Part shown: piece after piece, positions 24,413 to 44,818 of the stretch
Position numbering within the stretch: the stretch's first letter is position 1
Layout: the number at the start of each line of letters is the position of its first letter
Assembly (NCBI GenBank): GCA_025560025.1
Contig: CP048486.1
Coordinates: forward strand, 124,001 to 188,000
Length of the DNA stretch: 64,000 nucleotides
From: Agrobacterium tumefaciens
GTDB lineage: Bacteria > Pseudomonadota > Alphaproteobacteria > Rhizobiales > Rhizobiaceae
Direction of reading: 5' to 3'
Notes under the pieces: model-generated
Told to the model about the DNA's origin: nothing
The model's input: the letters and a program-made list of their open reading frames with translations, nothing else
The model's database searches: none
Translations under genes and position numbers: made by a program

Positions 24413-24422
24413 CAGCCTCCGA

Positions 24423-24494
24423 AAAGCCGGCTCTTGCTGTTGAGACTCTCAACTTATTCATTTGAATAATTTGCAACCCATTCAGTCCGGCTTT
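24423..24494 (+). promoter_or_regulatory. Nested inverted repeats downstream of the RpiR gene
   Basis: Outer arms AAAGCCGG (24423-24430) and CCGGCTTT (24487-24494) enclose two further palindromes, GTTGAGACTCTCAAC (24439-24453) and, directly abutting, TTATTCATTTGAATAA (24454-24469). As RNA this could fold into a three-way junction ending in CTTTAT and so act as a terminator for the RpiR gene. As DNA the two inner palindromes look like protein-binding sites upstream of rfbF. Both readings are inference. In the rest of the 260-nt gap a 15-codon frame (24562-24609) with GGGGAG seven bases upstream could be a leader, weakly supported. Confidence 0.45.
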
Positions 24495-24672
24495 ATACCC
24501 GAATCGTAAGAAGGTATTTGGCGCCCAAGGTGGTCGACAGAGCTGAACGGGGAGCGATTGGATGGCAAGCAATCTAACGCACGCCTCTTCCGCAGCAGTC
24601 GAGCTATAGGGTTAAGAACACTAAGCACGCTTGAATGTTTGTCAAAATATTGCATGGCTGAGGTCGTTTAGA

Positions 24673-25449
24673 ATGAAAGCTGTTATTCTCGCTGGAGGCC
24701 TCGGCACCAGAATATCTGAAGAAACCCACCTCAAGCCCAAGCCGATGGTGGAAATTGGTGGAAAGCCAATTCTATGGCACATCATGAAAATCTATTCGTC
24801 ACACGGCATCAATGACTTCATCATATGCCTGGGTTATAAAGGTTACTTGATTAAAGAGTACTTCGCCAATTACTTCCTACACATGTCTGATGTGACATTC
24901 GACATGAAGACTAACAGCATGGAAGTTCATCAGCAACATGCCGAGCCTTGGCGCGTCACGCTTGTTGAAACCGGCGAAGCCACGATGACGGGTGGCCGCC
25001 TTAAACGCGTTTCCCCCTATTTAAATGACGAAGAAGCCTTCTGTTTTACTTATGGCGACGGCGTTAGCGATGTAAATATCAGGGAGCTTGTCGATTTTCA
25101 TAAGCGCCATGGTGGTTTGGCAACGCTTACAGCAACATACCCGCCGGCAAGATTTGGCGCTCTGGACATACAGTCGGATCAGCGCATTACATCCTTTAAG
25201 GAAAAACCCAAAGGGGATGGCGGAATGATAAATGGCGGCTTTTTTGTTCTGTCTCCAAAAGTTGTCGATTTCATTGAGGGCGATAACACACCCTGGGAAC
25301 ACGCGCCGCTCGAAAGTCTCGCCACTCAGGGAAAATTGTTCGCATATGAGCACACCGGCTTTTGGCAGCCGATGGATACACTCAGGGATAAACATCTCCT
25401 TGAGGATCTTTGGGCCCGTGGGAAAGCTCCTTGGAGGATCTGGGAGTGA
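24673..25449 (+). CDS. rfbF: Glucose-1-phosphate cytidylyltransferase
   Basis: This 258-aa enzyme makes CDP-glucose from glucose-1-phosphate and CTP, the first step toward CDP-linked 6-deoxy sugars. The N-terminal nucleotidyltransferase motif [19 protein letters not shown] is followed by [21 protein letters not shown], the [11 protein letters not shown] metal-binding segment and [15 protein letters not shown] near the C-terminus, all diagnostic of RfbF/DdhA. ATG 24673 starts exactly at the conserved motif. The next gene starts with a GTG overlapping its stop. It opens the polysaccharide island and, by eye, is less G+C-rich than the genes to its left. Confidence 0.95.
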
Positions 25450-26519
25450 ATATCTCGTTCTGGCGCGGCAAGCGCGTCCTGCTCACCGGGCACACGGGCT
25501 TCAAGGGAAGCTGGCTATCTCTTTGGCTACAAAATTTGGGCGCACATGTTACAGGGTTTGCGCTGCCCCCGCCGACCAACCCCTCTCTGTTTGAAGCGAC
25601 AGGCGCGGCTGACGGAATGACCTCACTTATTGGGGACATACGGGATCTGGAGGCGTTGAAAAATGCGATGCGAACAGCAGATCCTGAAATTGTAATTCAT
25701 ATGGCCGCACAGCCTTTGGTGCGATATTCCTATGTAAATCCCGTGGAAACATTTTCGACGAACGTCATGGGCGTTGTGAATTTGCTTGAGGCGGTACGCG
25801 AAAGCCAGAAGATCAGGGCCGTCGTTAATGTAACAACGGACAAATGCTACGAAAATCGAGAATGGCCTTGGGGGTATCGAGAAAACGAACCCATGGGCGG
25901 GTACGATCCCTATAGCAGCAGCAAAGCGTGCGCGGAACTTGTGACTGCAGCCTATCGCAGATCGTACTTTACAACACCGTCAAATGGTCATCGTGTCGCC
26001 GTGGGGACTGCACGGGCCGGCAACGTTATCGGCGGCGGAGACTGGGCAAAGGATCGCCTCATCCCAGATATTGTATATGCGTTCTCGCAGGGAGTACCGG
26101 CTTCCATCCGGAATCCGCAAGCCATTCGCCCCTGGCAGCATGTTCTTGAATCGCTTCGCGGTTACCTCGTCCTCGCAGAAAATCTCTTCGAACATGGAGA
26201 TGAATTCGCAGAAGCCTGGAATTTCGGACCTAATGACGATGATGCAAAACCCGTATCATGGATCACAGAGCGCATGGCAGAGTTGTGGGGCAACGAGGCA
26301 AGCTGGTCCTGCGATGTTGGAAATCATCCGCACGAAGCTCATTTTTTGAAACTCGATATTTCGAAGGCGCGTAGTCGTCTTGCTTGGCACCCTGAACTTC
26401 GTCTGGATCGTGCACTTCAATATATTGTGGATTGGAGCAAGGCCGTTGCCGAGGGGCAGTCCGAAAGGAATGCTACCATTGCACAAATAAGAGAGTATCA
26501 AGCAGCCATAGCAAGGTAA
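25446..26519 (+). CDS. rfbG: CDP-glucose 4,6-dehydratase
   Basis: This 357-aa short-chain dehydrogenase/reductase converts CDP-glucose to CDP-4-keto-6-deoxyglucose. Evidence is the NAD-binding [46 protein letters not shown] with the catalytic region, [10 protein letters not shown] (YxxxK) and the RfbG-typical [21 protein letters not shown] 25446 overlaps the rfbF stop, with GGAGG nine bases before it. Together with rfbF it supplies the 4-keto intermediate used for ascarylose, abequose, paratose, tyvelose, yersiniose and branched sugars. No 3-dehydrase gene (ddhC) follows, so the 3-hydroxyl is probably retained. Confidence 0.95.
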
Positions 26520-26733
26520 AAATGAGAGGCCGTATTTTCCGTTCAGAATGCTTGCTGTTTAACAGGCCAACAGGAACCGTAAGCGTCCTCCAAAAGCGCA
26601 ATTGAGCTTGCACAGCGCAAACTTAAACATTCCCGGTGCATTTTCGCGAAAATGGCGCTAAAGCCAGACCGCAAGGCAACGGCATTCATCAACTGTCTTT
26701 GCTCGCTCAAAGACGAAAAAGGATCGATATTAT

Positions 26734-27687
26734 ATGAGCCACTTCAAGTTTGTCATGATTTCTGCGGGTTTCGAGCACGGAGGCAATGTTACGCACCGGC
26801 ACCTCGACGGGCACCCGGATCTGCTGGTTTATCCCTTTGAATCTCAGCTGGGCAGCCGCAACTTCAACGACTTTCTAGCTTCGGTCGAGCGCGTACAGTA
26901 TCGTTACCCTGAATTCCCCGAAGGCGCACGCCCCTATGAACTTTATGAGCATATGATTGACGAAGAGGCCAAGACCTTCCTTCGAAAAAGAAATGGTTCA
27001 AAGTTCAAGGATGCCGACCTGGATATGGTCGAAGCAGATCGTCTGGCCATTTTTGAGGAAATCCTGGGTGATGCACCGTTCTATCCCCGGGCCAAGGTTA
27101 TCGAAGCATTTTTCAGGGCAACCTTCAAAGCTTGGAAAAACTACTACACCAAGCAGCGCGAAGATATGACTTATGTAGGATATTCTCCAGCAATCGGTAT
27201 CGACGCCGATCGTATCGTGCGCGATTTTCCGGATGTCCGCATCATTCACATCGTTAGAAACCCATTCTCGGCATATCGCGACACCAAGCGCCGCCCCTTC
27301 CCTCAGCCGCTCAGCAAATACCTGATCACCTGGAACATCTATCACTCCACCGTCGAGATGTACGCCAAGATGCATCCTCGGAACGTACGTATATTCCGCT
27401 ATGAAGACCTTGTGGCCGATAAGGTGGAATTCATGAAGCAAGTCTCTGAATTCATAGACGTGCCCTTCAGCGAAACGATGCTTTACCCCAGCTGGAACGG
27501 CGTCGAGATCAAGGACAATATTGCCCCCTGGGGCACGGTGCTTAAGAGCACAGAGGAATATAACGAGGCAATCATCAACGAACTGACGGACGCGGAAAAA
27601 GCACAGATCGCCCACGGTTCCATGGCCCTTGCACGTCATTTCGGTTTCGACAAGATCAGCTACCTCAAGGACTATTACGGTGCTTAG
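26734..27687 (+). CDS. Sulfotransferase-like protein
   Basis: This 317-aa protein resembles the sulfotransferase superfamily. The segment IIHIVRNPFSAYRDTKRRPF fits the 3'-phosphate-binding motif of PAPS-dependent enzymes, and IFRYEDLVADKVEFMKQVSEFIDVPF is the usual sulfotransferase C-terminal helix motif. The N-terminal loop (ISAGFEHGGNVTHRHLDGHP) replaces the normal GxxRSGTT-type 5'-phosphosulfate loop, so donor or chemistry may differ. No signal peptide or membrane segment is seen; it would act in the cytoplasm on a sugar precursor. A 214-nt gap precedes it with no recognised feature. The next gene starts within its last codons. Confidence 0.7.
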   Translation: MSHFKFVMISAGFEHGGNVTHRHLDGHPDLLVYPFESQLGSRNFNDFLASVERVQYRYPEFPEGARPYELYEHMIDEEAKTFLRKRNGSKFKDADLDMVEADRLAIFEEILGDAPFYPRAKVIEAFFRATFKAWKNYYTKQREDMTYVGYSPAIGIDADRIVRDFPDVRIIHIVRNPFSAYRDTKRRPFPQPLSKYLITWNIYHSTVEMYAKMHPRNVRIFRYEDLVADKVEFMKQVSEFIDVPFSETMLYPSWNGVEIKDNIAPWGTVLKSTEEYNEAIINELTDAEKAQIAHGSMALARHFGFDKISYLKDYYGA

Positions 27688-28567
27688 CAAGTTGCGGCAC
27701 CTTAGTGCCGCAAATACTTTCAATCCGTTGAAAGAGGATTTGATGTCCGGGCTCCAAAGAATCTTTGGGGCCCACTTGGTGAAAATTGAGGTCGTCGACG
27801 GTGGCACGCTCGGGCTCTGCTTCACAGGGGAATTACTCGGACAGAAAAGGTTCTTTAAAACTTACGCCACCCCTGCGGGACGCTCTACCCTTGAGCGCGA
27901 GGCTGCTTTTCTCGTGGCAACGGCAGGGTCACGCGTAGACGCGGGTTTGAATTCCGTGACATCAGGGCAAGAAACCCGGACCTGGTTGAATATGAAGGTT
28001 CTTCAGCCCGGTTATCCGCTTCATCCAGAAGCGGTACGAGATATCGTGTCTTGTTACGAAAGGGCGCTTTCCCCAATAGAGAGCGAGATAGCGATACCTT
28101 CGTCGGAAAGTCTCGATTTGTTACTTTCCGAAGCGAACGCTGCCCTGGCGACGCTTTCACAGAAACGGCTGATTTCGGGGAGAATAACGGAGCAGGTGCA
28201 GAATTATCTTGATTTGCTTCTTTCATCTGCTCCCGCTTGGCAACGTCAGATTTGCCACGGCGATTTGAGCCCTGCAAACATCCGATCTGACGATATGGGA
28301 CCTGTCGTTGTCGACTGGGAGGACGCATTCTGGGGAGTTGCCGGATACGATTATCTTTATTGGCTTACGTTTTTTGAAAACAGAAAATGGCTGCTACCGG
28401 AACAACTTGGGCATACATGTCTAGGAAAAAAAAACGAAGTCGCAATAATGACCGCAGTCATACTGTTAAAATCGATATTGTCCGTACGGAATGGTAGCTA
28501 TAGAGCAAATGCAATCAGTTTCGATCAACGCTTAACGGAAGTGATAAAACTTGACTGCGACAATTGA
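27680..28567 (+). CDS. Aminoglycoside-phosphotransferase-fold kinase
   Basis: This 295-aa protein has the APH/choline-kinase catalytic motifs: a K in RFFKTYATPAG with E in LEREAAFL for nucleotide binding, Brenner motif ICHGDLSPANIRSDD, and VVVDWEDAFWGVAGYDYLYWL in place of DFG. In this setting it probably phosphorylates a sugar or a polysaccharide precursor and not an antibiotic. GTG 27680 lies inside the last codons of the sulfotransferase-like gene, with AAGGA upstream. ATG 27743, preceded by GAGGA, is an alternative start. The 3' end overlaps the following gene by 17 nt. The acceptor is unknown. Confidence 0.7.
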   Translation: MLSKLRHLSAANTFNPLKEDLMSGLQRIFGAHLVKIEVVDGGTLGLCFTGELLGQKRFFKTYATPAGRSTLEREAAFLVATAGSRVDAGLNSVTSGQETRTWLNMKVLQPGYPLHPEAVRDIVSCYERALSPIESEIAIPSSESLDLLLSEANAALATLSQKRLISGRITEQVQNYLDLLLSSAPAWQRQICHGDLSPANIRSDDMGPVVVDWEDAFWGVAGYDYLYWLTFFENRKWLLPEQLGHTCLGKKNEVAIMTAVILLKSILSVRNGSYRANAISFDQRLTEVIKLDCDN

Positions 28568-29630
28568 TGGCATTGCGTCGCAGGGCGCAACAAGACATGA
28601 TCTTAAAACGCTGATAGTGGACGCTAGGAGCGACTTCGAGACTCTGCAAGATGCACGCCTGTTTATCACCGGAGGCACCGGTTATATAGGTCGCTGGCTA
28701 CTCGAAGCTATCAGCTATGCGAACACACATATGAATCTTGGCATACAGGCGGTAATACTCAGTCGCGATCCCGACCGTTTCGCGAAGTTATACCCTCATC
28801 TGGCCAATGATTCCGCGCTATCATTCATAAAGGGTGATGTGCGCGAATTTCATATCGAAAATCCTCGCTTTACGCATATCATTCACGCGGCCACGGACGT
28901 AATCGCCGTAAACTCTCCGCTTGATGTGTTTGACGTCACTGTGCAAGGCACACGCCGCGTTCTCGATCTTGCTCGTGACAGTGGCGCCACCAAAGTTTTG
29001 TTACTATCTTCCGGCGCAGTTTATGGTCGCGACACCGGCCAGAGGGATCGATTTTCGGAGACATCAGCCGTGTCTGCCGATGTGTTCTCAACCAGCTCGG
29101 CATATGGATTGGGTAAGATCAATACCGAATGGTTAGGCAATACCTACGGGCAGCAATACGGTTTCGCCTGCAAATCCGCCCGTATTTTCGCTCAGATTGG
29201 TCCCTATCTCGAACTGGACGCCCAATTCGCTGCCGGGAATTTTATGCGTGATGCCATGCTGGATCTCCCTATAACGATAAAGGGTGACGGGAAAGCGATA
29301 CGTTCATATATGTATGCGACCGATCTTGTGGAGTGGCTAATCGCAATTTTGGTTCGAGGACAAGCGGGCAAAGCGTACAATGTCGGATCAGACGATCCAG
29401 TCTCAATTGCGGCGCTTGCGCAAGCGATTGCTCGAATAGCGGGCTTGAACCAATCAAAAGTTCAAATTCTCGGTCAGACCGTAAAAGGTGCCGCTCCGGA
29501 TCTCTATGTCCCCGAAACCCATGTCACGCGCACTGAGCTTGGTCTTTCAATACGAGTATCGTTGGACGACGCCTTAACGCGCACTATGGAATGGTATAAG
29601 CCAATTATTGCGAGCAGGAAACAGCCATGA
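28551..29630 (+). CDS. NAD(P)-dependent nucleotide-sugar epimerase/reductase
   Basis: This 359-aa extended short-chain dehydrogenase has Rossmann motif FITGGTGYIGRWLLEAI, the HAATD segment, KVLLLSSGAVYG, the active-site STSSAYGLGKINTEW (YxxxK), and a sugar-binding C-terminal half (SYMYATDLVEWLIAIL). It resembles CDP-abequose/paratose synthases and other 4-ketoreductases or epimerases of nucleotide sugars. Given rfbF and rfbG upstream, its substrate is likely CDP-4-keto-6-deoxyglucose or a branched derivative. A 50-residue N-terminal extension before the Rossmann fold is unusual. TTG 28551 is assumed as start, with GGAAG nine bases upstream. The stop overlaps the next start (ATGA). Confidence 0.8.
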   Translation: MTATIDGIASQGATRHDLKTLIVDARSDFETLQDARLFITGGTGYIGRWLLEAISYANTHMNLGIQAVILSRDPDRFAKLYPHLANDSALSFIKGDVREFHIENPRFTHIIHAATDVIAVNSPLDVFDVTVQGTRRVLDLARDSGATKVLLLSSGAVYGRDTGQRDRFSETSAVSADVFSTSSAYGLGKINTEWLGNTYGQQYGFACKSARIFAQIGPYLELDAQFAAGNFMRDAMLDLPITIKGDGKAIRSYMYATDLVEWLIAILVRGQAGKAYNVGSDDPVSIAALAQAIARIAGLNQSKVQILGQTVKGAAPDLYVPETHVTRTELGLSIRVSLDDALTRTMEWYKPIIASRKQP

Positions 29631-30439
29631 CTGACCTTTCGACATATGCAAAACAGGTTCGGTTGCGGGTGCTGGAGCTCTGCAGCCTCAAGCGCACGTC
29701 TCATATTGGCGGCGCCTTCTCCGTTGCCGACATTCTCGCGGTACTTTATGGACGCGTTCTGAACGTGTCGGCCGATGCCGTGGACAACCCGAACCGGGAC
29801 CGCTTGTTCTATAGCAAAGGTCACGCATGCACCGCGCTCTATGCCATGCTGGAACTCAAGGGCTTCTTTGCGGGTAAAGACCTCCTGCGTGAGTTTACGG
29901 AAAACGGTAGCTATTTCACATCACATATCAACCACAACCTGCCGGGGGTTGAATTGTCCACAGGTAGCCTCGGCCATGCACTCGGTGTGGCCTGCGGTAG
30001 TGCTCTTGCTGGAAAGCGTTTGAAGCGCGCAAATAGCGTTTTTGCCATATTGAGCGACGGGGAGCTGGATGAAGGCTCGAATTGGGAGGCGATCATGTTT
30101 GCCGCTCATAATCACCTCGACAATCTTGTCGCAATCATTGACTACAACAAGATACAGAGCTTCGGCAGAGTATGCGACGTGATGAATCTTGAACCCCTGG
30201 TGGATAAATTCCGCGCTTTCAACTGGGAGGTAGAGGAAGTGGACGGGCATTCGACCACCGACCTGTTGGAGCTTTTAAGTCGCTTCAAGGCAAGCCGTGA
30301 TGGCAAACCAAAATGCGTTATCGCGCATACGGTGAAAGGAAAAGGGGTAGGCTTTATGGAAAACGATCTTGCCTGGCACTATCGCTCTCCATCGGCTGCC
30401 GACGTCGCGAAAGCGCGTGAAGAGTTGGAGTCTGTTTGA
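29627..30439 (+). CDS. Transketolase, N-terminal (ThDP-binding) subunit
   Basis: This 270-aa half of a split transketolase has the pyrophosphate-side domain: HIGGAFSVADILAVLY, FYSKGHACTALYAML, the GSLGHALGVACG stretch and the ThDP/Mg motif SDGELDEGSNWEA ending in DYNK. It pairs with the following gene, whose start overlaps its stop. Split transketolases act as an alpha2beta2 assembly and transfer a two-carbon ketol unit. In a CDP-6-deoxysugar cluster, a two-carbon transfer onto a 4-keto sugar to make a branched-chain sugar is the attractive hypothesis. Ordinary pentose metabolism would not need a copy here. Confidence 0.92.
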   Translation: MTDLSTYAKQVRLRVLELCSLKRTSHIGGAFSVADILAVLYGRVLNVSADAVDNPNRDRLFYSKGHACTALYAMLELKGFFAGKDLLREFTENGSYFTSHINHNLPGVELSTGSLGHALGVACGSALAGKRLKRANSVFAILSDGELDEGSNWEAIMFAAHNHLDNLVAIIDYNKIQSFGRVCDVMNLEPLVDKFRAFNWEVEEVDGHSTTDLLELLSRFKASRDGKPKCVIAHTVKGKGVGFMENDLAWHYRSPSAADVAKAREELESV

Positions 30440-31350
30440 TGCGTAACAGTTTTATCAACACGCTTTGTGACCTTGCCGAAGAGAACGACGACGTATTCCT
30501 TTTGTGCGGTGATCTGGGTTACTCGGTTCTTGAGCCTTTCGCGCAGCGTTATCCTGACCGTTTTTTGAATGCCGGCATAGCCGAACAGAATATGACGCAG
30601 GTTGCCGTAGGCTTAGCCCGCGAAGGATACAATGTTTTCACCTATTCCATCGGCAATTTCCCAACGCTCCGCTGTATGGAGCAGATCCGCTACGATGTCT
30701 GCTATCATGAAGCCAATGTAAAAGTTGTGGCCGTAGGCGCCGGTTATGCTTACGGATCACAAGGCGTCTCGCACCACACGACAGAAGATTTGGCAATGAT
30801 GCGCTCTCTGCCGGGCATGACAATCTGTGCGCCGGCTGACGCATTGGAAGCGCGCGCGGCGGCCGTTTTCATGACGAAGCATAAGGGTCCGGGCTATATC
30901 AGACTGAATAAGTCTGGAGAAATCCATCTGCACGACCCCAACACTCCCCTGTCCATTGTCCCGGGTGAGTTCATACCTGTGAGAGAAGGGTCTGAAACTC
31001 TTGTTTTGGCAACTGGAGCCGTTGGCGCTCCAATTCTCCAAGAGATGAAAGATAGCGGTCGTGATTGGGCATTTTGGAGTGCGCCTTTTGTAGGAGGTTA
31101 CAAAAAAGACGTTCTCATTGATATGGCTCAGCGATTTCAAAGAATTGTCACCGTCGAGGAGCATCAGCTCAATGGTGGCTTTGGAAGCTCGATTGTGGAA
31201 GCTTTAAGTGATCTGTGCGCATGTGGCGAACTAGCACAAATCCCTCTCGTGAAACGAATTGCCGTTCCCAATACTTTCATCAGCACATCCGGTACGCAGG
31301 AATATTTGCGGCAAGTTGCGGGTATAACGATCACGGAAACCGGCTGGTAA
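30439..31350 (+). CDS. Transketolase, C-terminal (pyrimidine-binding) subunit
   Basis: This 303-aa second half of the split enzyme contains the pyrimidine-binding domain with catalytic Glu in FLNAGIAEQNMTQVAVGLA, followed by GVSHHTTEDLAMMRSLPGM and the C-terminal transketolase domain (VTVEEHQLNGGFGSSIVEAL). ATG 30439 overlaps the stop of the N-terminal subunit by one base (TGATG). Both subunits keep the residues expected for ThDP catalysis. Homologous pairs are found in many O-antigen and capsule loci, but I know of no firm general function for them there. Confidence 0.92.
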   Translation: MRNSFINTLCDLAEENDDVFLLCGDLGYSVLEPFAQRYPDRFLNAGIAEQNMTQVAVGLAREGYNVFTYSIGNFPTLRCMEQIRYDVCYHEANVKVVAVGAGYAYGSQGVSHHTTEDLAMMRSLPGMTICAPADALEARAAAVFMTKHKGPGYIRLNKSGEIHLHDPNTPLSIVPGEFIPVREGSETLVLATGAVGAPILQEMKDSGRDWAFWSAPFVGGYKKDVLIDMAQRFQRIVTVEEHQLNGGFGSSIVEALSDLCACGELAQIPLVKRIAVPNTFISTSGTQEYLRQVAGITITETGW

Positions 31351-31367
31351 GATCAGGAAACGACGAC

Positions 31368-31748
31368 ATGCCAGCCAAACCGTATCAATTCGATATCAGG
31401 ATAGTAAAATTCTTGATAGTTGGCGTCATCAATACAATCTTTGGATACACGATATACGTCGCCAGTCTCTGGATCGGATTACACTATACGGCAGCAGTCG
31501 CAACCTCCACAATTCTCGGAACGTTGTTCAATTTCAAAAGCATAGGTGCATTTGTATTTGAATCCCGGAATAATGCGTTGTTGCTTCGCTTTATCGGCGT
31601 GTATTTGTTCTTATATCTGCTGAATATCTCAGGGGTAAGCCTTCTCGTTCATTTCGATGTGCCTGCGTGGTTTGCTGGCTTGCTGCTTCTATTGCCCTTG
31701 GCAATTTTATCTTTCCTCCTAAATCGGCGTTATGTATTTTCCCCATGA
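31368..31748 (+). CDS. GtrA-family small membrane protein
   Basis: This 126-aa protein has four predicted membrane helices and the GtrA-like N-terminus IVKFLIVGVINTIFGYTIYV, ending with the conserved FLLNRRYVFSP. GtrA proteins are proposed to flip polyprenyl-phosphate-linked sugars across the inner membrane and work with a GtrB-type transferase, here the next gene, whose start overlaps its stop. A start at ATG 31368 avoids overlap with the transketolase gene. Confidence 0.88.
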   Translation: MPAKPYQFDIRIVKFLIVGVINTIFGYTIYVASLWIGLHYTAAVATSTILGTLFNFKSIGAFVFESRNNALLLRFIGVYLFLYLLNISGVSLLVHFDVPAWFAGLLLLLPLAILSFLLNRRYVFSP

Positions 31749-32695
31749 GAAAAAAGATCAGCATAGTAACTCCTCTCTTTAACGAAGAGGAAAATGTCGT
31801 TGAGCTGTGCGAACGCATAGCCGCCACTATGGCGAAATTGCCATATGACTACGAACACCTTTGCATAGACAATTGTTCGAAAGACAATACCGTGGCGATT
31901 CTTCGTTCCAGAGCGAAGAACGACAAGAATTTACGCGTTATCGTGAACAGCAGAAATTTCGGTTATATCCGCTCCTCTTTTCATGCTCTTCTGCAAGCTT
32001 CCGGAGACGCGGCGGTCTTGATAGCTTCCGACCTTCAGGATCCACCAGAAATGATCGCCGAGTTCGTGAAAAAGTGGGAAGATGGTTTCAAGACCGTTAT
32101 GGCGGTAAAACCCGTCAGTGACGAGTCGTCCGTCATGTTTGCCGTTCGAAAGCTGTATTATTCAGCCGTAGGCAGAATCTCCGAGGTGCCTCTTATCCAG
32201 AACGCGACGGGGTCCGGACTATTTGACCGCGCAGTCATTGATATCCTCAAACAAATGAATGACCCATACCCGTATTTCCGGGGACTCGTATGCGAAATTG
32301 GCTATCCGATTGCGACTGTTCCATTTAAGCAGCCGAGACGAGCACGCGGCGTAACCAGTCAGAATTTTTATTCGCTATATGACATGGCGATGCTCGGGAT
32401 CACGAAACACTCAAAGGTTCCTTTGCGTCTCATGACGCTTTCCGGATTTGCTCTCGCGTGCCTAAGCCTGTTGGTTGCATTCGGCTACTTTGTTGCGAAA
32501 CTGGTTATGTGGAACTCATTTGACATTGGCCTAGCGCCAATTTTGATCGGTATATTTTTCTTTGGTGCCGTCCAGATGATTTTTCTCGGCATGCTCGGAG
32601 AATATATTGGGGCGATTCAGACTCAGGTGCGAAGTCTACCACTTGTGGTTGAGGCGGAGCGCATAAATTTTGACGCTACTCGAACGAGCGATTGA
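31745..32695 (+). CDS. GT2-family polyprenyl-phosphate glycosyltransferase (GtrB/DPM1-like)
   Basis: This 316-aa glycosyltransferase of family 2 begins ISIVTPLFNEEENVVELCER and has the metal-binding SDLQDPPEMI (DxD-type) and two C-terminal membrane helices (around residues 235-255 and 270-290), the architecture of GtrB/ArnC. It is expected to transfer a sugar from a nucleotide donor to undecaprenyl phosphate on the cytoplasmic face. It overlaps gtrA by 4 nt. The final transferase (GtrC-like, periplasmic) could be the large membrane protein at 36961-39216; this is inference. Confidence 0.88.
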   Translation: MRKKISIVTPLFNEEENVVELCERIAATMAKLPYDYEHLCIDNCSKDNTVAILRSRAKNDKNLRVIVNSRNFGYIRSSFHALLQASGDAAVLIASDLQDPPEMIAEFVKKWEDGFKTVMAVKPVSDESSVMFAVRKLYYSAVGRISEVPLIQNATGSGLFDRAVIDILKQMNDPYPYFRGLVCEIGYPIATVPFKQPRRARGVTSQNFYSLYDMAMLGITKHSKVPLRLMTLSGFALACLSLLVAFGYFVAKLVMWNSFDIGLAPILIGIFFFGAVQMIFLGMLGEYIGAIQTQVRSLPLVVEAERINFDATRTSD

Positions 32696-33034
32696 GAAAT
32701 AATTGATCTGAACCTGTCATATCAACGATAAATTGGGCCGTTTGGAGCTGGAATTTTCGGTTTGTGGTGCCTGATGGGAAGAAGAAAAAATTCAATAAGG
32801 GCCTCGAAGTTTTCAGAAGCGCAAGTCGCATTCATCTTTGAGCGGGTACGCATACGGTTAGCGTGGCAGAGGGAAAAACAGTTCTTCGTCGTGATCAGGC
32901 CGAGAACTTCAGCTTCCGGTTTTCGAACGTTTAACCTCAAAAATCCCAGGGGATTCCAGCTCCGCAGGCTCAGAGCCCCTAGGGCCTGAGCGTCGCAGGG
33001 CAGGATGCTTGTGTATGAATAAACTACCGAGTTT
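32696..33034. other. Intergenic region with IS3-type remnant and a hairpin
   Basis: This 339-nt gap separates the convergent GT2 and TylF-type genes. It contains a degenerate IS3-type OrfA-like frame (32774-32989) and a GC-rich stem-loop at 32968-32991 (GCTCAG-GCCC/GGGC-CTGAGC with a CTA loop and a one-base bulge). No T run follows, so termination is uncertain. Confidence 0.45.
32774..32989 (+). pseudogene. Degenerate IS3-family transposase OrfA fragment
   Basis: The frame starting MGRRKNSIRASKFSEAQVAF resembles the N-terminus of IS3-family OrfA proteins (K/R-x-K/R-F-S/T-E-x-Q-I). After about 30 residues the similarity fades and no downstream OrfB is present. No terminal inverted repeats were identified. 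It is interpreted as an old, decayed insertion. Confidence 0.35.
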
Positions 33035-34288
33035 CTATTCAGTCTCTATCTTAAAACTATGAAGCCCAAGTCCAAGCGCCCGGGTGTCCCTGTTCGATGC
33101 ATCCAAAACATTTGGAGGTGTAAATGACTCAGGCCTGAATTCAACAAAAAGTGCTGGTGGAGACTCAGCATTTCGGTGTCCTTGAAGCATATGGAAAGGA
33201 ATAATTAATTCCCGTTTCCCGCGCTGATGTTCAGACGTAAAAGTCCACTCGGCAATCTCGGCACCTTCCAACAAAACCGTGACTTTCTGCTCCACCTGTT
33301 TGCCAAGCAAAACAGCATCGACATCAAAAATTAATCTGATATCCGTTTGGGGCCGAAAGGGGATTATAACGGACATCGTATGGCTCTCCCCAACGCCCCA
33401 CACCCCCCAGTCTTCCAGATCACCCCAGCCATCTCTCAAATAAGTTTTTAAAAGTTGCGTAGGAACCCAGGAGCCGACTGAAGAGTCCCGGAGCCTCTTA
33501 ATTCGCCAATTTTCGAATTTATCGGATGTCCGCGCCTTTCGAACAATCACGCTACCGCAGCTATCCGCTAATGGTATCAAGCACTCTGGTTTATCGGAAA
33601 AAAATTCGTCGGCTGCATTCTCGGCTCCGTCCCAATGCAAGCTCGAATAATCATGCAAAACTATAAATCCGCCCTCCGCCATTCTTGGGTAGAAATAGCT
33701 CAACGCGCTCATTATTGGACTGTAAAGGTCGCAATCAAGATGCACTAGGCAAAATTTTAGATTGTCCGGGATTTGCGCAGCCGACTCCGGGAAATATCCT
33801 TTTACATAAACCGTATTGTTGTCACCAACGAAGTCACGGACCGTTTCGAGACTCGTATCGGAAAACTGCATCGGAATAGATGAGTCAATACCTTTGATAT
33901 CTCTCGAATCAAATCCCTCGAACGTATCAAATAGATAAGCTGTTCGCCCGAGATCCTTAGCAAAATTTGCCAATATGTAAGATGTATTCCCTTTATAAAC
34001 ACCGAGTTCAGCAATATCGCCAGCAATACCCTCTTTCCTTATTTGGTCATGCACAAGACAAAAAGTAAAAAATCGGTTCATATCGCCTTTATTCACTTGT
34101 TCATTATGAATAAAACCGCTCACTAGATTTTTTAGAGGAAGCGCATTTCCCCTATTCTTATACATTTTATAATTCATAGAGTATCGCTGCGGTACAGCCG
34201 AACGAAGATCGCGGGGCCAAGCATCGCCAAACTCCGAATCGCGAGAGGTATTGGAAAACTTTTTCAACCAATTCGAAACAAACTTCAT
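33035..34288 (-). CDS. TylF/MycF-type O-methyltransferase with extra C-terminal domain
   Basis: The first 270 residues of this 417-aa protein match the TylF/macrocin O-methyltransferase family: SAM-binding IAELGVYKGNTSYILANFA, YLFDTFEGFD, then CLVHLDCDLYSPIMSALSYF and GGFIVLHDYSS, which in TylF binds metal for sugar O-methylation. The remaining 150 residues are a beta-rich domain ending LGLGLHSFKIE, a type I associate with surface-polysaccharide proteins. It likely methylates a sugar hydroxyl of the polysaccharide. It is transcribed against its neighbours and lies between two transposase fragments, which suggests separate acquisition. By eye it is rather A+T-rich. Confidence 0.82.
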   Translation of the reverse strand: MKFVSNWLKKFSNTSRDSEFGDAWPRDLRSAVPQRYSMNYKMYKNRGNALPLKNLVSGFIHNEQVNKGDMNRFFTFCLVHDQIRKEGIAGDIAELGVYKGNTSYILANFAKDLGRTAYLFDTFEGFDSRDIKGIDSSIPMQFSDTSLETVRDFVGDNNTVYVKGYFPESAAQIPDNLKFCLVHLDCDLYSPIMSALSYFYPRMAEGGFIVLHDYSSLHWDGAENAADEFFSDKPECLIPLADSCGSVIVRKARTSDKFENWRIKRLRDSSVGSWVPTQLLKTYLRDGWGDLEDWGVWGVGESHTMSVIIPFRPQTDIRLIFDVDAVLLGKQVEQKVTVLLEGAEIAEWTFTSEHQRGKRELIIPFHMLQGHRNAESPPALFVEFRPESFTPPNVLDASNRDTRALGLGLHSFKIETE

Positions 34289-34770
34289 TCTTATTCCACC
34301 AAGCGCTTATATTCGTTATGCAGTCACTATAGTTTTGGCTCGCAATCATGGCCAACCTGCACTATAGGCTATATTTCGCGTAAAAGTTTTCTAATGAAGA
34401 ATACATATCACGCGTTGCATCCTTGTCTAACCTATGCGCATCCGCATAGTCTGACAACCACACTGCCGTGGAAAATCAACAGCGAAAGCACCAGCTGCCA
34501 ATTCGCGTGCCATTGCCTCCGACCCTCGTTGGGTTTACCGAAGACCATTTAATTCAAGTCATGCAGACGACGCGCCCTGTCAAATCCGGGGAGCACGTCA
34601 AAACGACGATGGAGCAAACTCAGAGCTGGATATAACGCATGACAAAATCAAAATGTTTTACAATCCGAAAGGCAAACACATTGAGAACGGGAAGCCGTGT
34701 CGCGTCGAGTTCGAGAAGTAGCCGAAAATCTAACCCGAGCGTATTTATGACCCTCTGGGCTATTCACGCA
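34289..34770. other. Intergenic region with transposase tail
   Basis: This 482-nt stretch carries the upstream region of the TylF-type gene on its left (A+T-rich, 34310-34440) and an IS3-type OrfB tail at 34623-34721. The middle part shows no gene or repeat that I can support. Confidence 0.4.
34623..34721 (+). pseudogene. IS3-family transposase (OrfB) C-terminal fragment
   Basis: The last 32 codons read ELDITHDKIKMFYNPKGKH and continue IENGKPCRVEFEK before TAG. The pattern YNPxxKHxxNGxxxPVEFE is the characteristic end of IS3-group OrfB integrases. Everything upstream of it is frame-broken. It marks a decayed insertion between the TylF-type gene and hldE. Confidence 0.6.
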
Positions 34771-36228
34771 TCACTTTAATGTTCGCGCGCGTTTGATTAT
34801 TCCAGTTGTGGACTTGCCAGGGAGAAGCTCAAAACGCAACACTTCCCCCCCTCTTGCAAGCACGGATTCCGCTCCGACAATTTCATCAATTTTGTAGTCG
34901 GCGCCTTTGACAAGCAACGACGGCTCGAGAAAGTCGATAAGCTCTTTCGGCGTATCGTGATCAAAGATCACAACAGCATCAACCACGGCCAAGGCAGACA
35001 ACAGGTTCGCACGGTCATCTTGGGAGTTTATAGGGCGCTCAGGCCCTTTCAATCTGCGTATCGACGCGTCCGCATTTACGCCAACAATCAGCCGGTCGCA
35101 GTGGGATCTTGCGAAATCCAAGATTGAAGTGTGACCCACATGAAGAATATCAAAACACCCATTTGTGAAGCCTACCTTGAGCCCGTCATTTTGCCAGGAT
35201 CGCGATACGACTTTTGCTTCCTCCCAGGAGAGCACTTTTACAGACGAAGGCGTGTGCCCTGTATCGCTTTCCTTAGCCAACTCCTCCATAAGTTCCGATC
35301 GCGTAGTTGTTGCAGTTCCACGCTTGCCAACCACAATTCCCGCAGCCGTATTTGCGACATGGGCTGCCAGCTCCACGCTTCCTCCACAGGCCATGACCAG
35401 CGACAGGGTGGCGATAACAGTGTCTCCTGCACCAACGACATCAGACACTTCGCGTGCAGCAGCAGAAATATGCACAACGGGGTCCGTTTGGCCCACCAAT
35501 GTCATACCCTTTTCCGCACGTGTTATAAGGACATGCTCAAGATCCAGCGACTTCAATATCTCCTGGCCGGCAATAATCGCTGATTCATCATCGAGCGGAT
35601 CAATACCGGTCGCGACCCGCGTCTCTGTAGAGTTCGGCGTCAAAAGGGTTGATCCACTGTAACGAGAAAAATCCTTGGACTTGGGATCGACGATGACCGG
35701 TACGTTTCTGGCCCGCGCCAGAGAGATTATACGCGTGAGCACGCCTTTGGTCAGCACACCTTTCGCGTAGTCGGAGAGGATGAGCACGTCATGATTACCC
35801 ATGAAGCCATCAATGACGTTGAAAATCTCGTTTTCCGTGCCTTCATCTATGTCGACAGAGACCTCGCTATCAACACGCAACAAATGCTGACCGTTGGTCA
35901 CAAAGCGGGTCTTTTCACTGGTTGGCCTATCTTTAGCAACCACCAGCCTGGGCAAAATTCGATCGTCAGTTTCCAACAATTCCCGAATAGTGTCGGCTGC
36001 CTTATCGTTACCGACAACTCCTACGATGGTACAACGCCCCCCCAAGGAAGAGATGTTGCGAGCAACATTCGCAGCTCCGCCCGCAAAAACGTCTATCTTC
36101 TCTTCGGATAAAATCGGGATCGGACTTTCAGGAGATATACGCTTGACAACACCGGATACGAACCGGTCCAGCATAACGTCTCCCAGGCAGAGAATCTTGG
36201 CGGAATCAAACTTTTCTATTACAGACAT
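34771..36228 (-). CDS. hldE: Bifunctional heptose-7-phosphate kinase / heptose-1-phosphate adenylyltransferase
   Basis: This 485-aa HldE (RfaE) catalyses two steps of ADP-heptose synthesis. The N-terminal PfkB-type kinase domain has VFAGGAANVARNISSLGG, NGQHLLRVD and VVGAGDTVIATL (anion hole and catalytic Asp). The C-terminal cytidylyltransferase-like domain has GFTNGCFDILHVGHTSIL (HxGH) and LLPGKSTTGIIKR. ATG 36228 is preceded by GAAGG five bases upstream; the frame is open further but without support. It is transcribed opposite to the neighbouring GT-C and heptose genes. With the GmhB domain at 39332-41002 and the GT9 transferases it supports heptose in the surface polysaccharide. Confidence 0.95.
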   Translation of the reverse strand: MSVIEKFDSAKILCLGDVMLDRFVSGVVKRISPESPIPILSEEKIDVFAGGAANVARNISSLGGRCTIVGVVGNDKAADTIRELLETDDRILPRLVVAKDRPTSEKTRFVTNGQHLLRVDSEVSVDIDEGTENEIFNVIDGFMGNHDVLILSDYAKGVLTKGVLTRIISLARARNVPVIVDPKSKDFSRYSGSTLLTPNSTETRVATGIDPLDDESAIIAGQEILKSLDLEHVLITRAEKGMTLVGQTDPVVHISAAAREVSDVVGAGDTVIATLSLVMACGGSVELAAHVANTAAGIVVGKRGTATTTRSELMEELAKESDTGHTPSSVKVLSWEEAKVVSRSWQNDGLKVGFTNGCFDILHVGHTSILDFARSHCDRLIVGVNADASIRRLKGPERPINSQDDRANLLSALAVVDAVVIFDHDTPKELIDFLEPSLLVKGADYKIDEIVGAESVLARGGEVLRFELLPGKSTTGIIKRARTLK

Positions 36229-36960
36229 CGAACCTTCACCTATCAACCGCCGATACGATCTTTGAGATTGGTGCATTGTTATTCCGCTCGAATCTTCGCC
36301 TCGAATAACGTTCACGGCCGAGCGTGTATCGCGGAACAATGGAAGTTTCAAGAAAGAACGTCACAAGCTTTCACGAAGCTCGATTCTGATAATCAACTCC
36401 CTGTTCGAGGTGCTCGCTCAACAACCCCAACAGCATGGACAGGAGGGGAAAGGAGCTCTGATTGGTTCCTCGACACCTTACAGACACGCGCTCGGAAAAA
36501 TCCCTTTGCGGGCTCTGCGCCTGGTTTCAGCCATACTCGTTGCCTTGTCTGAGAAATATCAGGAGACTGTCACTTTCGGGAACGGCTAGAGCATTTTTGC
36601 AAACTGAAGAAGCTCAGGCATTCACGCGACTACCTCGGCGCTGACGGCAATACCGTTTTCAGGATCACTGGGACACGCGTCTACGTAAAAAATGAAAAGA
36701 ATATAGACACCGACAAATGGTTCCCGGGCCAAAATCAACCATCTGCCGATGGATGTTACTTCGACCTCAGGTATGGCGAAGGAAAATGGCTCTTGGCACG
36801 GGTACCTGATAATGGAACACTAGAGCGATGAACGCACCGCTGAACCGACTTGCGATAGACCCGGTGTAATTGCAGATGATCGGCACCGCCAACCTTGCTT
36901 TGAATGACCTGCTACGATAACGAAAGTCAGGTTCTATAAAATCAAGCCTTTGCGGAAACG
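36229..36960. other. Intergenic region between hldE and the membrane GT-C gene
   Basis: This 732-nt stretch contains divergent control sequences and one orphan coding-looking frame (36553-36831). Several short plus frames in 36260-36560 lack ribosome-binding sites and recognisable products. No tRNA, repeat or intact gene was seen. Confidence 0.4.
36553..36831 (+). pseudogene. Small coding-like remnant without start codon
   Basis: A frame closed by TGA at 36829-36831 reads as plausible protein (for example YLGADGNTVFRITGTRVYVK, then DKWFPGQNQPSADGCYFDLR) with balanced composition. It has no ATG, GTG or TTG start between the upstream stop and the sensible part. It may be the 3' remnant of a lost gene. 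I do not recognise the family. Confidence 0.3.
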
Positions 36961-39216
36961 ATGCGACTGTTCATTCAAAAACTTTGCCGATGGTTTGAAT
37001 TTTTTGCTCATGAGCGCCCCGTAACATGGGCCATTGCTTGTGCTCTAATTGGAATATGGGGAACGCTGGCAGCGGCGGGTTTTTGGAGAGTAGCTTTTGG
37101 CAGCCCTCCTGACGTTCAAGGCGACGCCCTGTTTTTATTGCTTTTTTCGAAGTCTGCGATTCTCGGCGAAGGATTCGTCAATATACCGTTTCTGGCATTT
37201 CCAGACGGTCTGAATTTTTCTTATTTTCCAACATTCGATTTCACGCAATTGTTCCTCATCAAGGCACTTGTACAATTTTACCATTCGCCCTTCGAAATCT
37301 GGACCGCCTTTCATATCGCCGCCGCAACTCTAGGCTTTTGCACCAGTTATTTGCTTTTTCTTTCCCTGACGGGGAGCCCGATGCAATCGGCCCTAATGGC
37401 CTTCTGCACCGCGTTCTTCGCTTACGTACAACGTTTGACCGGACATAATTTTCTTTATGCAGATTACGCCGTCGCTCTCGCTGTTCTGCTTATATTCACC
37501 CTGCTGGCCAAGGACTCGATAACACGTTCAAAAAATAAATTTATATACGCCATACAGTTTTATTTATTGCCATCACTCTGTATTTTTATCGTATTGTTTT
37601 CAGGCGTATATTATACGTTTTTCTTTCTTGCGATATTTTCATTCTTACTTTTCTATAAAATACTCACAGGAACGATTGAACTGCCCTATCGCGCGGTGGC
37701 GGTTATTATCGTTTCTATTATAATTTTCTCCATCGGCATGTTTATCGTCTATCCTCAGATATTACTGGACTCGGCCGTTTTTTCACCAACACGATCGGCT
37801 TTCGATCAACCAGCTGCGGCGTTACGCATCGCCGATGCCGCGCTGGAGTATTCAAACAACCGCTACAATCCATTAATGCCATTTCAATCGGGTACTATCT
37901 CCGCCTATGCCGAGTGGAGGCAGGTTATCGAAGGGTTTGACGCGTTCTCAGGACCGTTCGTCACTCTATTCGCACTTGCGGCGCCTTTTCTTGTGCCGCT
38001 CTCGTCTGGCGGATTCGTAAAACGCTGGTTTGAAAACGACAGAAAAGCCAAGGCCGTTTTGGATCTGAGCGCCGTCGCCATACTCTTCATTATATTGTTC
38101 GCCGTCCCGTTTGGTTACGGGTTCCTGTTCAGTGAATTCATTACACCAGCTCTTCGATCCCAGAACAGGATCAGTCCATTCATGAACCTGTTTGCGATCA
38201 TTTTGCTTTACGGCTTCATCAAATATGCTTTCAAGAGCACATTTGCGGTCGTGGTTGCATTGATCGTGATCGTCGGCTTCAACGGGATTGGCAGATACGA
38301 CTATTGGGCCCAATATTATCGATCCATAAGGACTGAGTCTGCACTCAACCTCCAATCGGCGCAAACTCTCGTAAGCAAGATGGAAGCCACACCGGAGACC
38401 GTTGTTCTGCAGTTGCCATATGCAAACTTTCCCGAAGTTCCTGATATCAAGAACTTCGCTCCATACCAGCATCTTCTGCTGCCAATTGTCTTTCCGACAA
38501 CCAATGCCAACGAGATGCCGCGCTGGAGTTATGGGTCCGTAACTGCGCAAGTGGCATCAAAGCTCGGGAATATACATATCGGAGAGCCGCTGAAGGCAGG
38601 ATGGGATCGGAATGCGGCATGCATGGGCTTCACCGACATCGTTGTCGAAAAGCGCGCCTATGACCAACTCCCAGTACCAGATGGATCTCTTTGGGTGCTA
38701 CGTCATGAAGATTCGCTGAGGCAACTCTGGGAGCGCGCCAGTACGTCGCGTCCATCTGGTTGTGCAAACACTTTGGCACTGGATTTCAGAAAAACCGATG
38801 ATCGTATGATGCTTTACGGCGAGGACAGAGTCTGGCATGTGGACGAAGTGGGTGGGTATTTGAAAACAAGCGAAGGCAAGATTGCACTACCACTGTTCGA
38901 TTTGCGTCAGAGCGAGATTTGCCTGAGCGTGGAAGCGCAATTGATTAACAGGACAGACCGCTCGAACCGAAATACGCAACTCTTTCTTAAAGTGGGCTCC
39001 ACGCAGACTGTATGGCCAATTGAGGGCAATACGGCGAGCGCTAGCTTTATCGCTCGGATAGGCAAAGACGATTGGCAAGGGAACGTGATGTATATGACGG
39101 TCAGCCAGACTGCAGCGGATATGCCTTGGTTTGAGAGACTGAAGGCAAGTTACCGCGCGCGCAAGACCATGATTGGCATTCAATCTTTGCAGATCAAACC
39201 ATCACCTTGCGGGTAG
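36961..39216 (+). CDS. Large multi-spanning membrane protein, probable GT-C-type glycosyltransferase
   Basis: This 751-aa protein has ten or more predicted membrane helices in the first 450 residues and a soluble C-terminal part of about 300 residues. The first periplasmic loop contains FGSPPDVQGDALFLLLFSKS with an acidic motif (GDAL) where GT-C enzymes hold a catalytic Asp/Glu. The C-terminal half includes a beta-rich domain ending in KTMIGIQSLQIKPSP, similar in style to the TylF-type protein's tail. It is likely a periplasmic sugar transferase using a polyprenyl-phosphate sugar donor, and could serve as the GtrC partner of 31368-32695. It is A+T-rich compared with the flanking chromosome. 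No specific family name can be given. Confidence 0.65.
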   Translation: MRLFIQKLCRWFEFFAHERPVTWAIACALIGIWGTLAAAGFWRVAFGSPPDVQGDALFLLLFSKSAILGEGFVNIPFLAFPDGLNFSYFPTFDFTQLFLIKALVQFYHSPFEIWTAFHIAAATLGFCTSYLLFLSLTGSPMQSALMAFCTAFFAYVQRLTGHNFLYADYAVALAVLLIFTLLAKDSITRSKNKFIYAIQFYLLPSLCIFIVLFSGVYYTFFFLAIFSFLLFYKILTGTIELPYRAVAVIIVSIIIFSIGMFIVYPQILLDSAVFSPTRSAFDQPAAALRIADAALEYSNNRYNPLMPFQSGTISAYAEWRQVIEGFDAFSGPFVTLFALAAPFLVPLSSGGFVKRWFENDRKAKAVLDLSAVAILFIILFAVPFGYGFLFSEFITPALRSQNRISPFMNLFAIILLYGFIKYAFKSTFAVVVALIVIVGFNGIGRYDYWAQYYRSIRTESALNLQSAQTLVSKMEATPETVVLQLPYANFPEVPDIKNFAPYQHLLLPIVFPTTNANEMPRWSYGSVTAQVASKLGNIHIGEPLKAGWDRNAACMGFTDIVVEKRAYDQLPVPDGSLWVLRHEDSLRQLWERASTSRPSGCANTLALDFRKTDDRMMLYGEDRVWHVDEVGGYLKTSEGKIALPLFDLRQSEICLSVEAQLINRTDRSNRNTQLFLKVGSTQTVWPIEGNTASASFIARIGKDDWQGNVMYMTVSQTAADMPWFERLKASYRARKTMIGIQSLQIKPSPCG

Positions 39217-39331
39217 CGTTATAGTCAAGGAACGATTTGCCCAACAAAATTGTTCCTAGATGATCGGGCTTGGAGTGTGTTCTCAGGCGCAGATCGAGTT
39301 TTTCGCCTTTAGAAGGTCATGTGGAGATAAA

Positions 39332-41002: not shown

Positions 41003-41067
41003 GCGGAACAGCTCGTTCTTTTGTGGCAGTGAATTCGACATCTAAAGCGTGAGGGGGGATACAAGGC

Positions 41068-42273: not shown

Positions 42274-42399
42274 GGCAGCATTGTAAATTGCTGTCCAAGG
42301 AACAACGCAGTCTACCAGCGTTTCCAATTTAACCTGCCTCACGGATAAGCCCGTTTCGTGATATTGGCAAAGTTTACTTTTCCTACCTTGGACTAAATA

Positions 42400-43623: not shown

Positions 43624-43676
43624 CACAATGTAAATATTGTCAATTCTGAAGCCTTCGGAAACAGATTTCTTTCTCT

Positions 43677-43722
43677 AAAGGGAGCATAGAAGTCGTCGCG
43701 GTATCGCGACAACTCTCCTTTT
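43677..43722. terminator. Nested hairpin between convergent genes
   Basis: Inner stem GTCGCG-GTAT-CGCGAC (43695-43710) is enclosed by AAAGGGAG and CTCCTTTT arms (43677-43684, 43715-43722). The T run on plus and A-rich left side allow termination in both directions, of the GT9 gene and of the methyltransferase gene. Confidence 0.6.
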
Positions 43723-43758
43723 AAGAACCGCTCAATTGCGTCCAGCCTAGACAGACAC

Positions 43759-44655: not shown

Positions 44656-44818
44656 TATAACCGCGGCTTTCTTTGAGGGGCGTAATGCACAATACGCCGA
44701 CACGTCTTTCGCTATGGATTAAATTCTAAAACTTCCTCACAAATCGCCGCGGCGACAACTAGGTCTGCGTTTTCCAACCCATCACCTGCTGCACCGCGAT
44801 TACCCGTGCCGGATACCT

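Follow-up and report, generated by a model that had tools for sequence, protein, structure and literature searches.

The stretch analysed here, called the window throughout, comprises 64,000 nucleotides (nt) of Agrobacterium tumefaciens (assembly GCA_025560025.1, contig CP048486.1, positions 124,001 to 188,000). The element in question is an operon of nine genes encoding, in this order, RfbF, RfbG, a sulfotransferase-family protein, an APH-family kinase, an extended short-chain dehydrogenase/reductase (SDR), the two subunits of a split transketolase (TktN and TktC), GtrA and a GtrB-like glycosyltransferase (Table 1). The GTG start of rfbG overlaps the stop of rfbF by 4 nt, the stop of the SDR gene and the ATG of tktN share the 4 nt ATGA, and tktN and tktC overlap by a single base (TGATG, with the tktC ATG at 30439); the reading frames of rfbF, rfbG, SDR, tktN and tktC are all intact. 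RfbF and RfbG both exceed the curated cut-offs of their NCBIfam equivalog models, as expected for a pathway to cytidine diphosphate (CDP)-4-keto-6-deoxyglucose, and the transketolase is of the split type, its Transketolase_N and Transket_pyr/Transketolase_C domains residing on separate subunits encoded by adjacent genes. The nearest PDB chains belong to one split transketolase, 6yak for TktN (E value 1.4e-58, by sequence) and 6yaj for TktC (both by sequence and by predicted fold). An earlier note on this DNA had named rfbF and rfbG as the source of CDP-4-keto-6-deoxyglucose and had described an SDR overlapping a two-subunit transketolase by 4 nt, all of which held, including the coordinates. 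Its gene list was incomplete, since four operon genes (sulfotransferase, kinase, gtrA and gtrB-like) were left out, and the SDR does not directly follow rfbG, the sulfotransferase and kinase genes lying between them.

Table 1. Features of the split-transketolase operon and its surroundings, in window positions
Feature	Position	Strand	Evidence and remarks
rfbF, glucose-1-phosphate cytidylyltransferase	24673..25449	+	TIGR02623 468.8 bits, cut-off 300.25
rfbG, CDP-glucose 4,6-dehydratase	25446..26519	+	GTG start; TIGR02622 507.8 bits, cut-off 278.45
Sulfotransferase-family protein	26734..27687	+	Pfam Sulfotransfer_3 47.4 bits
APH-family kinase	27680 (GTG) or 27743 (ATG) to 28567	+	Pfam APH 44.1 bits
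Extended SDR, predicted reductase of the keto branch, dependent on nicotinamide adenine dinucleotide phosphate (NADP(H)), or epimerase	28551..29630	+	Pfam Epimerase 120.2 bits
tktN, N-terminal subunit of split transketolase, binding thiamine diphosphate (ThDP)	29627..30439	+	Pfam Transketolase_N 130.6 bits
tktC, pyrimidine-binding and C-terminal subunit of split transketolase	30439..31350	+	Pfam Transket_pyr 104.8, Transketolase_C 35.9 bits
gtrA-like flippase subunit	31368..31748	+	Pfam GtrA_DPMS_TM 56.5 bits; three hydrophobic segments
GtrB-like polyprenyl-phosphate glycosyltransferase	31745..32695	+	sll0501 glycosyltransferase (5ekp), E value 2.5e-52; two C-terminal hydrophobic segments
Membrane protein of 751 amino acids, candidate for the periplasmic transfer step	36961..39216	+	Nine hydrophobic segments; no Pfam match at E value 1e-5
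Species-specific variable surface-glycan segment holding the operon	24413..44866		Right edge approximate; left bound RpiR-type regulator gene (ends 24412), right bound GT4 gene (ends near 44819)

The operon probably directs the transfer of a ketol unit to a CDP-4-keto sugar, followed by reduction. This reading draws on the gene content, the intact frames, the conserved clustering, the fusion of the SDR in a relative, the active-site changes and the absence of the segment from other species of the genus. RfbH (ddhC), the 3-dehydrase of the CDP-3,6-dideoxyhexose pathway, is missing, as the earlier note had stated: its best match anywhere in the genome, whose completeness is rated 100%, reaches 46.8 bits versus a cut-off of 423. 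A Pfam scan of the island proteins likewise showed no YerE-type (acetolactate-synthase-like) gene, a negative that covers these proteins and not the remainder of the genome, in line with the note's statement that none follows.

A search for conservation of the gene order, which the earlier note had proposed, recovered rfbF and rfbG together with tktN and tktC in 28 fetched loci besides the window, spread over four phyla. A locus was considered linked if rfbF and rfbG (43% identity or more) lay within the fetched stretch around tktN/tktC. Among 123 loci (80 from a scan of representative genomes, 40 Alphaproteobacteria stretches and three plasmid loci), 22 were linked: 12 of the 80 representatives, 8 of the 20 best-scoring class stretches, none of the other 20 and two of the three plasmids. 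A later phylum sample contributed 6 of 12, three of the other six being stretches below 11.3 kb cut by contig ends. The hosts include Neorhizobium, Burkholderiales, Duganella, Flavobacteriaceae, Bacteroides heparinolyticus, Terracoccus (Actinomycetota) and Paenibacillus. The 28 comprise L006, from the same species as the window, and L018, which is not counted as kin; it was rejected as a member of the linked clade, since its rfbF/rfbG start about 5 kb past tktC and its transketolase groups elsewhere. In L009, a metagenome bin titled Bordetella parapertussis, the identity of the cassette is close to the values for Zwartia and a Burkholderiaceae bin, and the name may be wrong. Across 385 Alphaproteobacteria genomes, a TktC match (E value 1e-30) was found in 82, RfbG over its cut-off in 85, and both in 25. 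RfbG lies within 10 kb of the TktC match in nine of these 25 (G000, G361, G281, G078, G008, G322, G241, G045 and G117; three of them, G008, G322 and G241, from one genus, and one of the nine being the window's own genome), versus 0.22 expected from random placement, and five more show distances of 15 to 46 kb. As polysaccharide genes cluster in any case, the true chance level is somewhat above 0.22. The association between rfbF/rfbG and the split transketolase is real.

An SDR of one of three types is present in 24 of the 28 linked loci. It is the nearest searched gene before tktN, on the same strand, in 19 of them; among these, a methyltransferase gene stands between the two in L011 and L012, and in L090, from Paenibacillus cellulosilyticus, SDR and TktN are fused in a single frame of 635 amino acids downstream of rfbF and rfbG (L090:8097-10001, SDR residues 19-247, TktN 383-612), annotated only as an SDR family oxidoreductase. 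This fusion is good evidence that both proteins act in one pathway. A frame of 645 amino acids around TktC in genome G461 was rejected as a further fusion, the open frame merely extending upstream over tktN in another frame. The rest of the operon is less constant, with a GtrB-like relative of at least 150 bits in 14 of the 28 loci and the sulfotransferase with adjoining kinase in eight (L006-L010, L123, L187 and L189). By eye, the SDR of the window shows the Ser..YxxxK motif, lacks the Asp-Glu pair of 4,6-dehydratases and has an Arg after beta-2, as is typical of NADP-binding enzymes. Decarboxylases, dehydratases and epimerases are among its near PDB relatives, and so is the NADP-dependent CDP-glucitol reductase of Campylobacter; fold searches with the predicted model, which is weak (mean predicted local distance difference test score, pLDDT, 64.7), return only "extended SDR" and favour neither a reductase nor an epimerase. 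Our first choice is that the SDR would reduce the branch ketone. For yersiniose, the corresponding step is described as having no characterised enzyme as of 2016 in the passage concerned with it (PMC4753412).

In a tree of 80 transketolase rows, the window falls in a 19-row clade with support of 92 in the Shimodaira-Hasegawa-like approximate likelihood ratio test (SH-aLRT), below the 95 mark. The tree was built before L184-L194 were fetched; near copies and partial or ambiguous rows (L006, L020, L040, L052 and L063) and rows with a TktC match of 120 bits or less were left out. As many as 17 of the 19 members have rfbF and rfbG nearby, and linkage changes state seven times on the tree, versus 19.4 times for shuffled labels. 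Regarding the two exceptions, L024 has an RfbF over the cut-off (310.9 bits) and a dehydratase-like SDR of 213.9 bits versus the RfbG cut-off of 278.45, and in L133 the RfbG is found on another contig of the same genome.

Active-site residues are numbered here as in E. coli TktA (L089). Those which we take to be ThDP-binding and catalytic (His26, His66, His100, His261, Asp155, Asn185, Glu411 and His473) are all kept in the window, which carries the changes H461G, D469Q and R520K and so departs at three positions from canonical pentose phosphate transketolases. His461 and Arg520 are presumably the binders of the substrate phosphate, Asp469 presumably contacts the hydroxyl adjacent to the carbonyl that reacts, and His100 is taken to contact the C1 hydroxyl of the ketol donor. 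Among 24 rows (the window, 22 linked loci and L024), position 461 is Gly throughout, position 469 is Gln in 10, Leu in 13 and Ala in one, Lys stands at 520 in 22, and His100 is kept in 22. Given what is kept and what is lost, the enzyme seems made for forming the ketol intermediate and passing it to an acceptor other than a phosphorylated aldose. The set Gly461/Leu469/Lys520 was also considered as a signature of CDP-keto-sugar acceptors and rejected, being common to transketolases of other sugar clusters.

Some related loci pair with RfbH, meaning a 3-deoxy acceptor, which the earlier note had not foreseen; of 29 related genomes or records, 10 have an RfbH above its cut-off (for the host of L090 the search covered only the plasmid record, and for L091 only the locus was considered). 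Residue 469 appears to follow this difference. The idea was formed on the 24 rows and recorded before position 469 was inspected in six additional linked loci. Four came out as predicted (L184 and L185 with Leu and RfbH, L187 and L189 with Gln and no RfbH); in L190 (Leu) RfbH is not at the locus but on another contig of the genome, and L191 (Ala, no RfbH) is an outright miss. Some of these are kin, L187 and L189 sharing a genus with L123, and L185 and L190 sharing another. Over 28 rows (without L006, a near copy of the window, and L018, but with L024, whose dehydratase is below the cut-off), RfbH is lacking in all 11 Gln469 rows and present in 11 of the 17 with Leu or Ala, or 11 of 18 if L018 is added. 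Fisher's test gives p 0.0009, a value that ignores kinship. On supported branches there are three independent pairs with the residue as trait, or five with RfbH as trait, and wherever the other trait differs, it does so in the predicted direction (p 0.25 to 1); with kinship considered, three to five contrasts are too few for significance. The expectation holds in the sister pair L124 (Gln, no RfbH) and L125 (Leu, RfbH). Of the six exceptions, four (L014 and L129-131) carry a sugar C-methyltransferase-type gene instead, but so does L090 (Gln); its presence was checked in L014 and L129, L130 and L131 being near copies by the tree. This gene, with an S-adenosylmethionine (SAM) domain and a C-methyltransferase C-terminal domain, lies between rfbG and the SDR gene (L014:5785-7029, L129:11200-12429 and L090:6773-8083), which suggests that some acceptors are methylated on the ring. 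Since C3 adjoins the reacting carbonyl and is the position deoxygenated by RfbH, pairing a polar residue with a C3 hydroxyl and a non-polar one with a C3 methylene would make sense, and we put forward as a hypothesis that residue 469 may read the state of C3.

Taken as a route, RfbF and RfbG would produce CDP-4-keto-6-deoxyglucose, and TktN and TktC would form a ThDP-dependent transketolase with a changed acceptor site. This enzyme would take a hydroxyacetyl (two-carbon ketol) unit from a ketose phosphate or hydroxypyruvate and put it on the C4 ketone, yielding a CDP-octose, a tertiary alcohol that bears a hydroxyacetyl branch. With NADPH, the SDR would then reduce one carbonyl; this is most likely the ketone of the branch, which would become a dihydroxyethyl group. 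The GtrB-like enzyme, whose match sll0501 we take to be a GtrB, is the likely user of the CDP-sugar and would transfer the sugar to undecaprenyl phosphate, GtrA would flip it, and a membrane transferase would add it to the surface glycan, possibly with sulfation. GtrA and GtrB, two parts of a gtrABC-type lateral glycan modification, are both present by homology; 4.3 kb downstream, the 751-amino-acid protein, which has no Pfam match, is a candidate for the periplasmic transfer step and may have a GtrC-like role. Every catalytic step after RfbG is inferred, and so are the donor, its stereochemical course, the sequence of steps and the glycan that results. The earlier note had already suggested that the transketolase branches a CDP-4-keto sugar. 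Co-occurrence, the clade, the SDR-TktN fusion and the lost residues for phosphorylated aldoses favour it; the C4 ketone as acceptor, the hydroxyacetyl unit and a location in lipopolysaccharide (LPS) are its putative parts. Going further, and only tentatively, the multi-phylum transketolase clade may be a third, undescribed family that makes C4-branched CDP-sugars for surface glycans by transfer of a ketol instead of an acetyl unit, with residue 469 reading C3: Gln where the C3 hydroxyl is present and RfbH absent, and Leu or Ala where this hydroxyl has been taken away by RfbH or C3 is changed in some other way.

Several observations weigh against ketol transfer to a CDP-4-keto sugar. In 16 of the 25 Alphaproteobacteria genomes with both genes, these do not lie within 10 kb of each other, and the linked rows L018, L090, L091, L136 and L138 fall outside the 19-row clade. 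None of the SDR types searched is found in four of the 28 linked loci (L018, L124, L185 and L190), and the SDR could be an epimerase. L136 and L138 lack His100 although they are linked. Moreover, split transketolases from other sugar clusters that lack rfbF/rfbG share Gly461/Leu469/Lys520, and thus the active-site changes are not specific for a CDP-keto-sugar acceptor, and the loss of His461 and Arg520 would also weaken the binding of a phosphorylated ketose donor. We also know of no branched sugar from this organism.

In an unlikely alternative, the split enzyme branches the CDP-4-keto sugar with another unit, either a pyruvate-derived acetyl, as with YerE and AviB1/B2, or a longer hydroxy-keto acid unit, as with ErwE, to give a yersiniose-like sugar by convergence. 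TktC does match DXS models at 114 bits, versus 139.7 for transketolase, and DXS structures rank next after 6yaj for its fold; DXS is a pyruvate-using member of the superfamily. The changes at His461 and Arg520, together with the loss of His100 in L136 and L138, point the same way. However, the His100 expected to touch the donor's C1 hydroxyl is retained in all but two of the 24 rows and is missing from the DXS of the genome (identity checked, 798.8 bits), a protein that keeps Asp469; the window enzyme, with two chains, His100 and Gln469, differs from the single-chain DXS in each respect, and TktN is far closer to transketolase (130.6 bits) than to DXS (29.9). It is also quite unlikely that the split transketolase acts on free sugar phosphates, making an unusual precursor such as a heptulose or octulose phosphate, with the clustering of rfbF/rfbG reflecting nothing more than a shared polysaccharide. 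An HldE-like kinase/cytidylyltransferase and two GT9 heptosyltransferase-like genes in the same island, the APH-family kinase within the operon and a related transketolase clade beside HldE-like genes (L148) would all suit such a role, but the clade associates with rfbF and rfbG even in distant Bacillota and Actinomycetota, an SDR of the nucleotide-sugar type is fused to TktN in a relative, and the phosphate-binding His and Arg are changed. In addition, the ordinary Tkt should, on our understanding, already make sedoheptulose 7-phosphate.

That ordinary enzyme is a full-length transketolase encoded elsewhere in the genome (a frame of 675 amino acids whose N domain scores 466 bits), and another two split transketolases are encoded there as well, at G000:C2:1692117 and 1715536 (L161 and L160), about 23 kb apart; both are possibly catabolic. 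With three other transketolases present, a housekeeping role of tktN/tktC is unlikely. A redundant housekeeping or catabolic transketolase that sits in the island by accident is very improbable: the presence of two other split enzymes in the genome speaks for it, but these two keep His461 and group elsewhere in the tree, the full-length Tkt is at hand, and the clade of the window is tied to rfbF and rfbG. For the operon, ketol transfer to a CDP-4-keto sugar is the reading we keep.

Clades neighbouring that of the window occur in other sugar clusters, some with a DegT aminotransferase and an initiating sugar transferase, others with an HldE-like protein and two DegT proteins, so recruitment of the wider split-transketolase family to sugar tailoring seems to have happened on more than one occasion. 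As an example, L148:2755-11832 holds a split transketolase beside an HldE-like protein, an APH-family kinase and two DegT aminotransferases; L148 and 13 related tree rows share Gly461/Leu469/Lys520 in a different sugar pathway, the gene content having been checked in L148 only. Split transketolases without rfbF or rfbG nearby are also found in L013, L015, L016, L019, L022 and relatives from several phyla. Loci of the L013 type contain, in varying combinations, genes for a DegT aminotransferase, a bacterial sugar transferase, a TylF methyltransferase and asparagine-synthase-like proteins.

Within the 5.68 Mb host genome, the segment that holds the operon is variable and has a foreign look. In a stretch of genome G397 (L201), the RpiR homologue (95.6% DNA identity up to window base 24412) is followed 66 bases on by a GT4 homologue (70% identity, aligned to the window from 44867 on), and nothing in this stretch matches window positions 24413-44866; in L202 similarity sets in again at 44894, and in L203 only at 46599. 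A TktC of the window kind (99-100% identity) is found in two of 39 genomes of the genus, the window's own and one of the same species, the other TktC matches among them reaching 37% identity at most. The 751-amino-acid protein is likewise found in two of the 39, both of the window's species. All nine cassette proteins share 97-100% identity with their counterparts in Agrobacterium genomosp. 13 strain CFBP 6927 (L006). The G+C content of the cassette is 50.1% versus 60.1% in window positions 1-24400. Its neighbours in the segment (an HldE-like protein, a GlcNAc-2-epimerase/HAD protein, two GT9 transferases, methyltransferases and the membrane protein with nine hydrophobic segments) indicate a surface-glycan locus. 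The GlcNAc-2-epimerase/HAD protein, at window 39260-41002, has 580 amino acids and combines a GlcNAc-2-epimerase domain with an HAD-like C-terminal part.

In the open-licence literature we found no recognised account of this split-transketolase/rfbF/rfbG cassette. A Brachyspira genome paper names "transketolase" and "rfbF", and was set aside; in the part of the paper that names them, these are separate genes and not a cassette. According to the passages of a 2025 review on sugar-branching ThDP enzymes, those of the YerE-like type act primarily on sugars of LPS and other cell structures, whereas natural products are what alpha-keto acid dehydrogenase types and transketolases are mainly used for. 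They describe 13 split transketolases, all from Streptomycetes, as thought to act on ketones, none having been characterised in vitro, and ketone-accepting transketolases in general as proposed from gene clusters without experimental evidence (PMC12247030). The placing of transketolases outside the established branching families in the earlier note agrees with these passages. Transfer of a carbon unit to a ketone by ThDP enzymes yields chiral tertiary alcohols, which chemists seek, and the cassette supplies candidates for ketone-accepting transketolases outside Streptomycetes, whose likely acceptor is made by two well-known enzymes. Enzymes with and without a 3-dehydrase partner offer a natural contrast, and together with a named acceptor this turns the question of the ketone acceptor into a simple in vitro test. 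Branched surface sugars can matter for immune recognition and phage binding, and the recurrence of the cassette in distant bacteria suggests an undescribed route to them.

Among known systems, the NADP-dependent CDP-glucitol reductase of Campylobacter jejuni (8v4g, 8v4h) is an SDR that reduces a CDP-sugar, as predicted for the SDR of the window, and belongs to the nearest solved relatives of the latter (E value 7.6e-17; highest Z, tied with others); its substrate is another one, identity to the window SDR is 17-19%, and decarboxylases and epimerases score alike. The split transketolase of Carboxydothermus hydrogenoformans (6yak, 6yaj) shares the subunit split and the fold and is the best PDB match named above for both subunits, but keeps His461, Asp469 and Arg520 (by eye from the alignment). 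We know of no sugar-nucleotide context for it. In the miharamycin and amipurimycin clusters, and in the 13 Streptomyces sequences, a split transketolase is likewise proposed to transfer hydroxyacetyl to a keto sugar; these belong to antibiotic clusters and are likened to the window enzyme through their description in the review passages (PMC12247030). AviB1/AviB2 (avilamycin) and Pau11/Pau12 (paulomycin) are also two-part ThDP enzymes that branch C4, with later reduction of the ketone, according to the account of these pathways (PMC4753412); they differ in belonging to the alpha-keto acid dehydrogenase-type superfamily and in transferring an acetyl unit, and the paulomycin ketoreductase Pau7 is an aldo-keto reductase, in contrast to the SDR of the cassette. 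In yersiniose formation (RfbF, RfbG, RfbH and YerE, in Yersinia O-antigens), a ThDP enzyme likewise adds a two-carbon unit to C4 of a CDP-4-keto deoxysugar destined for LPS, as outlined in the relevant parts of both sources (PMC12247030, PMC4753412). However, YerE belongs to the decarboxylase superfamily and uses pyruvate and a 3,6-dideoxy acceptor (as given in the passages of PMC12247030), whereas the window has a two-subunit transketolase and no RfbH. What would be new here is thus a ThDP-dependent branching of a CDP-4-keto sugar, a reaction of a known kind, carried out by an enzyme of a different superfamily.

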